Origin: Solirubrobacterales bacterium
GTDB lineage: Bacteria; Actinomycetota; Thermoleophilia; Solirubrobacterales; 70-9
DNA length: 45,815 bases
Reading direction: 5' to 3'
NCBI GenBank assembly: GCA_021323175.1
Contig: JAJTCK010000005.1
Location: 1-45,815 of the forward strand
Shown here: positions 19,522-25,145 of the stretch, piece after piece
How the letters are laid out: the number at the start of each line of letters is the position of its first letter
Position numbering within the stretch: position 1 is the stretch's first letter
Notes under the pieces: generated by a model
Databases searched by the model: none
Seen by the model: the letters and a program-made list of their open reading frames with translations, nothing else
Told to the model about the DNA's origin: nothing
Program-made: the position numbers and the translations under genes

Positions 19522-21636
<2,115 letters not shown>

Positions 21637-21747: not shown

Positions 21748-21766
21748 AAAAAGGCCCTGCCGGGCC
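21748..21766 (-). terminator. intrinsic terminator-like hairpin in the fusA leader region
   Basis: On the minus strand GGCCC-GGCA-GGGCC is followed directly by TTTTT. It lies about 110 nt upstream of the fusA ATG, so it either stops transcripts arriving from rpsG or acts as an attenuator of fusA. Confidence 0.5.
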
Positions 21767-21885
21767 CGAGCGCTTCCGCGTCAGATGACCCGACCTGCTC
21801 CTATGTCGTCTTGCCGTTCTCCATTCAAGCGGGTATCGCCCGCGTCCCGCCCCGAGATGTCAGGGCGGTCCATGGGCGACGCGGG

Positions 21886-21891
21886 ATGATA
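21886..21891 (-). promoter_or_regulatory. possible -10 box for a long fusA leader
   Basis: TATCAT on the minus strand would start RNA near 21879 and give a leader of about 240 nt that includes the terminator-like hairpin at 21748-21766. No clear -35. Confidence 0.3.
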
Positions 21892-21899
21892 GCAAGGGC

Positions 21900-22994
21900 A
21901 TGATGGGCTCCAGAGAGGGATTTCTCGAGCGGCGCAGGCGTCGCAGGGCCTCGGAGCGCGAGCTGGCCCGCAAGGCCGATCTGGTGCGATCCGATGCCCG
22001 CGCGAAGTCGAAGCGCCGCAGCTCCGAGCGGCGCCGGGCACGCTTCTCGGGCTGGCGGGACGAGATCGTGGAGCTGTGGATGTGGATCAAGGGTTCGGCC
22101 TTCGAGATCCGGCGCCGCGCCGGCCGCGGCGGTGCCGCCGTCGAGCGCCGCGTGGCACCGGTCGCCGCCGTGGTCTCGAGGCGCGTCAGTCCCGCGCTGG
22201 CTCCGGCGAGCCGTGCGCTCGTGCTGGCCTGGGGCGCTCTCAGCGCGCTGCTCCGTCCGCTGGCGCCCCAGGTCGCCGCCGCGCTCTTCGCGCTCGTGCG
22301 CGCGCTCGGCGCGGTCCTGAGTGGGGTGCTCGTGGTCGGCTCGCGCGTTCGGGCGACGATCGTCGCAGTCGCCCGGGCCTTGATTCGGTGGATGGACGCC
22401 CACGTCACGGCCGCCCGCGTCTGCGCCGCGCTCGCGATCGCCGCGGCGGCGGCGATCGCCGCCTCGCAGTTCGTCGACTACCGCGGGATCGCCATCGGCG
22501 CGGACCAGTACCAGGGAGACGCGGGTGAAGTCGCCCCCGTCCCGCAGCTGAACCGGGAGCTCACAGGCGACGCGCACGCCTACCTGATGCTTCCGCTCGC
22601 GCTGCTCGCGATCATCCTCGCGTCGCTGGCGCTGCGCGGCAGGCCGCGCCTGGCGCTCCTGGTTTCGCTGATCGGCCTGGCCGGGATCGTGGTCACCCTC
22701 GCCGTCGACCTGCCGCAGGCGCTCGACACCGGGCGGATCGGCGAGGCCTACGAGGGCACCGAGGCTCGCCTGCTGACCGGATTCTGGATACAGCTGATCG
22801 GCTCGGCCGTCCTGCTTGCGGCCGGCCTGGCCCTTGCGCGCTTCGCCGGCGGCGCGCGCAGGCGGGCAGGCCGCACCCGGCCCGCCACCCGGTCCACTTC
22901 GCCGCGGGGCGGCGCCGAGGGACATCCGGGCGGCGCCCGGGCCCCTGGGGCGCACGGCGGCCACGGCGCCGCGGGGTCGGGGGCCGGCGCCTGA
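21900..22994 (+). CDS. uncharacterised four-helix membrane protein with basic N-terminal half (paralogue A)
   Basis: I do not recognise this 364-aa protein. Residues 1-50 are very basic (a run of six Arg at 11-16). Residues 80-165 are Ala/Val/Arg-rich and partly hydrophobic. Four clear membrane helices follow (about 173-190, 226-245, 249-269, 294-313), then a Gly/His/Ala-rich tail. The helix region matches the next gene: SQF at 189-191, H226 and Y228, DLP at 270-272, and GFW with L299 and G301. A second ATG at 21903 is better spaced from AAGGG. It is divergent from fusA and coupled to the next gene by TGATG. Confidence 0.8.
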   Translation: MMGSREGFLERRRRRRASERELARKADLVRSDARAKSKRRSSERRRARFSGWRDEIVELWMWIKGSAFEIRRRAGRGGAAVERRVAPVAAVVSRRVSPALAPASRALVLAWGALSALLRPLAPQVAAALFALVRALGAVLSGVLVVGSRVRATIVAVARALIRWMDAHVTAARVCAALAIAAAAAIAASQFVDYRGIAIGADQYQGDAGEVAPVPQLNRELTGDAHAYLMLPLALLAIILASLALRGRPRLALLVSLIGLAGIVVTLAVDLPQALDTGRIGEAYEGTEARLLTGFWIQLIGSAVLLAAGLALARFAGGARRRAGRTRPATRSTSPRGGAEGHPGGARAPGAHGGHGAAGSGAGA

Positions 22995-23575
22995 TGGGCA
23001 TCGACCGCACACGGGCCCTCCTGGTCCTTTCCTGCGCGGGCGCCGCCGCCCTGCTCGCCGCTTCGCAGTTCACCAACCTCTTCGAGCTGACCCCGACCGG
23101 CGGCGATGCCCTGGGCGAGGTCAAGTCGGATGACCAGCACGGCTACGCGATCATCGTCCTCGCCGCCCTCTCCCTTGTGCTGCTGGTCGTCTCGCTGGCC
23201 GCCCGCGGAGAGGCGATCGCCCAGGGCGCCGCCTTTGCGGTGGCGGTGTGCGGCGTCGTCTGCCTGCTGATCTTTCTCGTCATCGACCTCCCGGACGCCA
23301 ACAGCATCGGCGCCCTAGACGACGAGTCCTTCATAGACGCGAAGGCCGAGCCCGCCGCGGGCTTCTGGTTCGAGCTGGTGGGAGCACTGGTCCTGACCGC
23401 ATGCGGAGCCGCCCTGGCTACGCTGCGTCCCGAGCCCGCGTCACTGGCAGGCTCGGCCGCCCTCACGCGTCCCTCCTCCGATGACCGTGGGCTGCGTGAG
23501 GGGACGCCGAACGGCGCGCCTCAGCGCGACCTGCGAAGCCCGGCGCCGAACGCCGCCGAGACCGAGCCCCGCTGA
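22994..23575 (+). CDS. uncharacterised four-helix membrane protein (paralogue B)
   Basis: This 193-aa protein is the compact partner of the preceding gene. It has four helices (about 8-25, 51-70, 76-98, 122-143) with the same landmarks: SQF at 24-26, H49 and Y51, DLP at 98-100, GFW at 123-125, then L128 and G130. The loops after helices 1 and 3 are acidic and would be extracytoplasmic if the N-terminus is inside. The C-terminal 45 residues are polar and probably disordered. Its ATG shares the A of the upstream TGA. It converges on rpsG across an 82-bp gap. Function unknown. Confidence 0.82.
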   Translation: MGIDRTRALLVLSCAGAAALLAASQFTNLFELTPTGGDALGEVKSDDQHGYAIIVLAALSLVLLVVSLAARGEAIAQGAAFAVAVCGVVCLLIFLVIDLPDANSIGALDDESFIDAKAEPAAGFWFELVGALVLTACGAALATLRPEPASLAGSAALTRPSSDDRGLREGTPNGAPQRDLRSPAPNAAETEPR

Positions 23576-23657: not shown

Positions 23658-24128
23658 CTACCAGCGGTAGTGCGCGAAGGCCTTGTTGGCCTGGGCCATG
23701 CGGTAGATATCGTCCTTGCGCTTCCAGGCGTTGCCCTGCTGCTTGGACGCATCCAGGATCTCGTTGGCCAGGCGCTCTGGCATCGACTTCTCGCCGCGGG
23801 CGCGGGCGAACTCGACCAGCCAGCGGACCGCGAGGGTCCGGGCGCGACGAGCGGGGACCTCGACCGGCACCTGGTAGGTGGCGCCTCCCACACGGCGGGA
23901 GCGGACCTCGAGGACCGGGGTGAGCTGCTTGATCGCGTTCTCGAGGTCCTCCACGGGATTGCCGCCCGTCCGCTCGCCCACGATGGCGAGCGCGTCGTAG
24001 GTGATCTGTTCGGCGACGGACTTCTTGCCGTCGCTCATCACCTTGTTGACGAGCTGCTGGACGAGGCGGCTCCGATAGAGGGAGTCCGGCTCGAGGGGGC
24101 GGATCGTCGCCTGGTTGCGGCGAGGCAT
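23658..24128 (-). CDS. rpsG: 30S ribosomal protein S7
   Basis: S7 initiates 30S head assembly and in E. coli autoregulates the str operon. The 156-aa product has [17 protein letters not shown], the signature [16 protein letters not shown] and the AHYRW end. The ATG at 24128 is 4 bp after the rpsL stop; the longer frame to 24341 is a shadow of rpsL. It is followed by opposite-strand genes instead of fusA. Confidence 0.98.
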
Positions 24129-24638: not shown

Positions 24639-25145
24639 GTGGGAGCCTCGGGTGAATCCGGGCGGCCGCTGCTGGCCGTGGACGTGGACGGCGTCATCAG
24701 CCTGTTCGGGCATGACCGGCCGAACGAGGAGGCGCCGGGCGACTTCCACCTCGTCGACGGGATGCCGCACTTCATCTCGGCCGCGACGGGCCCGCGGCTG
24801 AACCGGCTGGGGCAGACCTATGACCTGGTCTGGGCGACGGGCTGGGAGGACCGGGCCAACGACCACCTGCCGGCAATCCTGGGCATCCCCACGCTGCCCT
24901 ACCTGACCTTCGACGGCGAAGCGCGCTTCGGAACCGCGCACTGGAAGCTACCCGCGATAGACTCGTACGCCGGCGACCGGCCAACCGCCTGGATCGACGA
25001 CAGCTTCGATTCCAGCTGCTACGAGTGGGCCGAGAGCCGGCGGTCGCCGACCCTGCTGGTTCCGACCGATCCCGCGATCGGCCTCGAGGAGGGACACGTC
25101 GCGGCCCTGGAGTCGTGGGCGGCGGACGGCTACGCCGTGCGCTGA
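24639..25145 (+). CDS. HAD-like hydrolase domain protein
   Basis: The 168-aa protein has the layout of a HAD-fold phosphatase: nucleophile motif DVDGV with D15 and D17, the [10 protein letters not shown] segment for motif II, a Lys in HWKLPAID for motif III, and WIDDSFD for motif IV. The sequence resembles small HAD domains found near RNA-repair enzymes, but that is recalled resemblance and the substrate is unknown. GTG at 24639 is chosen from the TAACCT-N7-GTG arrangement. It is divergent from rpsL and lies head-on to the rpoC-rpsL direction. Confidence 0.82.

Follow-up and report, generated by a model that had tools for sequence, protein, structure and literature searches.

A four-helix membrane protein family at the rpsG-fusA junction and a candidate attenuator leader of fusA in Solirubrobacterales

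The gene order rpsL-rpsG-fusA-tuf is treated as near universal. The membrane proteins closest to those described here belong to PF09534 (Trp_oprn_chp), the tryptophan-associated transmembrane protein, and to DUF7937 (PF25592). PF09534 is likewise an actinobacterial four-helix membrane protein, and both families are uncharacterised; their sub-threshold matches are the only family matches worth naming. Two described leaders bear on the regulation of the adjacent fusA gene. For streptococci, the available part of one report places an attenuator between rpsG and fusA (PMC2965389), and in actinobacteria a short upstream open reading frame (uORF) reportedly governs the transcription attenuation of WhiB7/wblC, a gene related to translation (PMC7157823).

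We analysed a stretch of 45,815 nucleotides (the window) from a member of the order Solirubrobacterales, whose families are denoted f1 (the family of the window) to f4 and whose genera carry g numbers. As a preliminary description of this DNA had claimed, two genes split rpsG from fusA: the open reading frames of gene A (21900..22994, 364 aa) and gene B (22994..23575, 193 aa) were both confirmed there on the + strand. On the - strand, fusA (EF-G, 19522..21636) is divergent from A, and rpsG (S7, 23658..24128) is convergent with B. The two genes are joined by a TGATG overlap (22992..22996, + strand), in which the A stop codon occupies 22992-22994 and the B start codon ATG 22994-22996. A search with B retrieved A from its own genome (37% identity, E=1.2e-12), hence the two are paralogues, again as described. 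Near rpsL, a further + strand ORF of the window (24639-25145) was conserved in the majority of the f1 and f3 loci that were examined and in some f2 loci, lying opposite in orientation to rpsL in the window and in most of these loci; its match to HAD_SAK_2 was weak and under cut-off (E=4e-4).

Protein A consists of a basic N-terminus (residues 1-99), hydrophobic stretches (100-146) and a four-helix core at about 165-320, and B of the four-helix core only. The landmarks SQF, H-x-Y, DLP and GFWxxLxG were present in both proteins. Across 81 full-length family domains, the invariance claimed for them held for the D (81/81), the P (80/81), the H (79/81) and the G of GFW (79/81), which correspond to H226, D270-x-P272 and G294-F-W in A and to H49, D98-x-P100 and G123-F-W in B, whereas SQF, the Y and the L of DLP varied. 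A glycine in helix 3 was found in 78 of the 81 domains and the serine after helix 1 in 67, and position 133 (helix 4) was E or Q in 78. The basic N-terminal half ascribed to A was borne out for residues 1-99, with 30 K+R, and needs amending for residues 100-146, which add two hydrophobic stretches modelled as helices by AlphaFold at low confidence. In the locus of G041 (L065:2442-3203), A was missing the D-x-P and GFW part in frame and B was intact; this loss is due to a frameshift, a sequencing error or decay.

The charge pattern of B and of the A core, with acidic outer loops 1 and 3 and basic N-terminal segments, places H, D-x-P and GFW on the predicted outer face, in agreement with the preliminary description. 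The C-terminal segment of A is also basic. Both termini are predicted to lie inside, and the H that opens helix 2, the D-x-P that follows helix 3 and the G-[FLY]-[WY] that opens helix 4 are predicted to come together outside. Structure models of A and B, built from three-sequence alignments drawn from the window and L061, were of low to middling confidence: AlphaFold gave B four helices (5-29, 48-69, 73-106 and 119-143; mean pLDDT 70) and A a B-like four-helix core preceded by low-confidence helices. The model has in common with claudin, TARP and synaptogyrin-type proteins the up-down order of four helices, inside termini and a larger first outer loop. The best Foldseek match was not significant (E 0.027), and a VIA-align Z of about 12 was obtained for unrelated soluble bundles as well, so the likeness amounts to a common arrangement only. 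The fold comparison as a whole returned generic four-helix bundles only.

The claim that A and B fall into no known family stood up, in that no curated Pfam or NCBIfam cut-off was reached. NCBIfam gave no convincing match to either protein, the sequence search of solved structures gave no match, and the literature searched held no description of the family, which had been put forward as undescribed. The nearest approach was to PF09534, with weak profile similarity over helices 2-4: A scored 25.5 bits (E=1.3e-5) against a curated cut-off of 29.6 bits, and 7 of 36 family members gave a weak match. In a profile-profile comparison (hhalign) of the A/B family with PF09534, the probability was 78% and P was 1.9e-5 over 98 columns, well above the reversed controls (about 10%, P 0.003), so remote kinship is possible. 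The family might then be a remote branch of PF09534 with the same function, which we consider unlikely. The matches stay below the cut-off, which was exceeded in none of 99 genomes of the class; most of the PF09534 members collected have a W after helix 1 and a C-terminal WDALDxGxDPT, both of which A and B lack, and the H / D-x-P / GFW signature was not seen in PF09534 members. The loci also differ, as PF09534 sits with tryptophan biosynthesis genes and the A/B family at rpsG-fusA throughout the order. The match to DUF7937 was likewise sub-threshold: 6 of the 36 members gave one, at best with E 1.1e-6, B scored 17.1-19.6 bits against a curated cut-off of 31 bits, and the alignment was stretched, with about 130 residues spread over about 250 profile positions.

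The distribution of the family was determined by tblastn and then with a four-helix core profile derived from the 36 sequences of alignment A1, covering the class, the order and the phylum. The profile search found the family in 81 of 151 genomes of the order: 45 of 50 sampled f1 genomes, 19 in f3, 17 in f2 and none of the five f4 genomes. It is absent from most sampled f2 genomes and from all of f4, and is therefore dispensable there; in many of the f2 genomes that lack it, only a few hundred bases separate rpsG from fusA. Within the order, all 96 matches on rpsG-bearing contigs lay less than 8 kb from rpsG, at a median of 646 bp, with 80 on the opposite strand to rpsG and 16 on the same strand. 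Fourteen of these 16 came from genera g10 and g95, the other two being the pair in G186. In the g10 and g95 loci that were read, the rpsL-rpsG block is inverted, a single A-type gene is kept and B is missing; in L075, L076, L154, L155 and L158 of these genera, the inverted rpsL-rpsG adjoins fusA, and rpsL has the A-type gene just upstream. Most of the other matches came from contigs that lack rpsG, and several of these contigs carry fusA instead. Only two copies appeared to be off-site, L146:3471-3872 (G255:C29) and L149:3759-4187 (G204:C83), and both genomes also carry a copy at the rpsG-fusA site.

A contig search with B gave one close relative only, a MAG labelled Actinomycetota. Outside the order, weak remote profile matches were obtained in G055, G331 and G404 (E about 1e-5 to 1e-6); these are possible distant kin, not beside rpsG or fusA where checked. 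Single-sequence matches in other families of the class (G134, G138 and G161) were discarded as aquaporins with the MIP signature. The pair and its place had been proposed as conserved, and both are kept in relatives, but the pair occurs only in f1 and the sister families f2 and f3 are single-copy; at the scale of Thermoleophilia, the site is kept across the carriers of the order, while the matches elsewhere in the class are spurious or remote. On the points that could have told most against the preliminary description, the analysis found homologues in relatives, conserved core residues and no hit to a well-known family.

In a maximum-likelihood tree of the domains, A and B formed separate clades restricted to f1 (support 0.89 and 0.99), and the single copies found at the locus in f3 and in f2 formed clades of their own (support 0.99 and 0.98); G157 of f2 and both off-site copies were placed elsewhere. 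As the A and B clades are confined to f1 with single-copy families outside, the tree is consistent with duplication in tandem at the base of f1, followed by mainly vertical inheritance and the loss of B in g10 and g95. A 4-nt RTGA overlap or TGATG joined A to B in 13 of 13 pairs checked. The dN/dS values were 0.09-0.44 for the family cores and 0.6 for the N-terminal half of A in one comparison (G029/G198). Judged by these substitution ratios, A and B are functional genes whose constrained part is the core.

The gap between A and fusA holds a leader whose elements follow one another on the - strand in the order promoter-like TGCTATCAT, 6-7-codon uORF, terminator hairpin and fusA. In the window these are an extended -10-like element TGCTATCATC (21885..21894), directed at fusA and directly upstream of the A start, a seven-codon uORF MENGKTT-stop (ATGGAGAACGGCAAGACGACATAG, 21801..21824), and a terminator-like hairpin with a U-tract (21748..21767), all on the - strand. 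Of 49 fusA loci in the order, 46 carried TGCTAnnnT ahead of the gene, whether the membrane gene was present or not. A 6-7-codon uORF with the consensus M-E-[TS]-x-x-[TRN]-stop occurred in 33 of 34 long leaders, and in these the U-tract always ended 51-59 nt past the uORF stop. With an ATG start, the uORF was present in 32 of the 34 leaders, whereas shuffled leaders gave 1.5 on average and 6 at most. The usual last codon of the uORF, ACA, is rare in fusA, tuf and rpoB of the window (1.3 per thousand).

A covariance model of the leader detected it in other genomes of the order and, outside the order, nothing below E=0.01. For nine genomes left out of model building, all nine matches lay directly before fusA and all nine had the uORF; the stop codons TAG, TAA and TGA interchange among these held-out leaders, which argues that the uORF is translated. 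One match within the order (G186:C52) was set aside, as it was not near fusA. The leader stays with fusA where fusA lies away from rpsG (G178, G154 and G130), and in genera g5, g10 and g95 the leader is shortened and lacks the uORF. Three leaders of genus g18 in f2 (L126, L136 and L137; G081, G163 and G182) keep TGCTATAGT without the uORF and terminator model and share a different conserved end, AAGTCGTCTGCGTAC, possibly representing another leader type. Within the leader, CCGGGC could pair with GCCCGG of the terminator as a possible antiterminator (about 80% of cells paired), and RNAalifold returned the short terminator stem only, with no covarying pairs. The leader may act as an attenuator of EF-G/EF-Tu expression by way of its peptide, a reading drawn from sequence; no paper describing it was found.

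The membrane genes could be vertically inherited residents of a seldom-rearranged stretch, with A and B as diverged paralogues that form no joint complex and are unrelated to their neighbours. We regard this as a real possibility, though clearly short of an even chance: the tree separates f1, f2 and f3 largely as vertical descent expects, fusA and its leader persist in f2 genomes that lack the gene, and g10 and g95, in which the rpsL-rpsG block is inverted, retain A alone. In G178, fusA and its leader are found at another place on the contig, and the membrane gene remained next to rpsG. What speaks against this account is that the A/B overlap and the core residues have been preserved by purifying selection since the duplication, which points to co-production of A and B.

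Genus g5 provided the only content-bearing association found for A and B. Directly 3' of B lies a gene for a Peripla_BP_6 lipoprotein (PF13458, E=2e-46), with a 4-nt overlap in several genomes; it was found in 13 g5 genomes, in 12 of them on one contig with A and B, and in no other genus of f1 at E<=1e-20. It is the third gene after A-B at L156:3542-4735 and in the g5 equivalents, with only a fragment in G222 and none found in G241. Elsewhere the downstream gene is unrelated, such as a cyclase in G178 and a small unknown protein in G093. A lipoprotein as third gene, together with the outer-face site, suggests that a ligand or partner is bound outside the cell.

Our main reading, to which we give a probability of roughly 0.35, is that the A/B family consists of four-helix membrane proteins kept at one site, which form an outer-face oligomer binding a ligand or partner and serve the envelope rather than translation. 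A and B, coupled by their overlap, would be made together and would assemble into an oligomer of both subunits in most of f1 and of one subunit type elsewhere; an obligatory A/B heteromer is not implied, since g10 and g95 keep A without B. The outer site would bind a small ligand, a lipid headgroup or an extracytoplasmic partner, which in g5 the lipoprotein may present to it, and the probable role would be envelope sensing or uptake. Counted against this reading are the limitation of the lipoprotein to one genus, the lack of the family in most sampled f2 genomes and in f4, the modest confidence of the structure models, and the conserved site, which may reflect simple vertical inheritance.

A link with translation, in which the pair would recruit or tune ribosomes or EF-G through the basic N-terminus of A and be co-regulated with the divergent fusA, appears distinctly unlikely. 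The constant fusA/rpsG neighbourhood, the highly basic residues 1-99 and a fusA promoter-like element that stops just short of the A start are what it would explain, but the N-terminal half of A is poorly conserved, in the alignment as well as by its dN/dS, and is missing from B, the invariant residues lie on the predicted outer side, and many relatives lack the gene. Moreover, since a promoter-like leader of its own precedes fusA and inheritance looks vertical in the family tree, the rpsG-fusA location need not mean a translation link. With fusA apparently expressed from that leader, the insertion need not disturb the supply of EF-G under the envelope reading.

The leader is the more interesting and the more testable of the two findings. 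Taking both together, we tentatively propose, at not far below even odds, that the leader is an order-wide regulator in which the translation speed of the peptide sets the level of EF-G/EF-Tu, and that A and B together are a membrane partner of a new type for an extracytoplasmic binding lipoprotein. In such a scheme, fusA-tuf would be transcribed from its own promoter through a leader with a 6-7-residue peptide and a terminator, the last codon of the peptide before the stop usually being one that is rare in this genome. If it is a true attenuator, the leader would exert direct, elongation-sensing control over the supply of elongation factors. The whole order tolerates divergent membrane genes within rpsL-rpsG-fusA-tuf, apparently because fusA has its own regulated promoter-like leader and appears to be independently expressed, which makes the split between rpsG and fusA tolerable. 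The membrane family itself is lineage-specific, under purifying selection and uncharacterised, and its four near-invariant residues are directly mutable.

Compared with described leaders, the fusA leader resembles the WhiB7/wblC attenuator as an actinobacterial uORF before a translation-related gene, and differs from it in serving fusA-tuf, in its 6-7-codon M-E-[TS]-x-x-[TRN] peptide and in having no match in Rfam. The streptococcal attenuator, as presented in the available part of that report, is a terminator-type leader upstream of fusA, as here; that part mentions no short conserved uORF (PMC2965389), whereas the leader of Solirubrobacterales has one.
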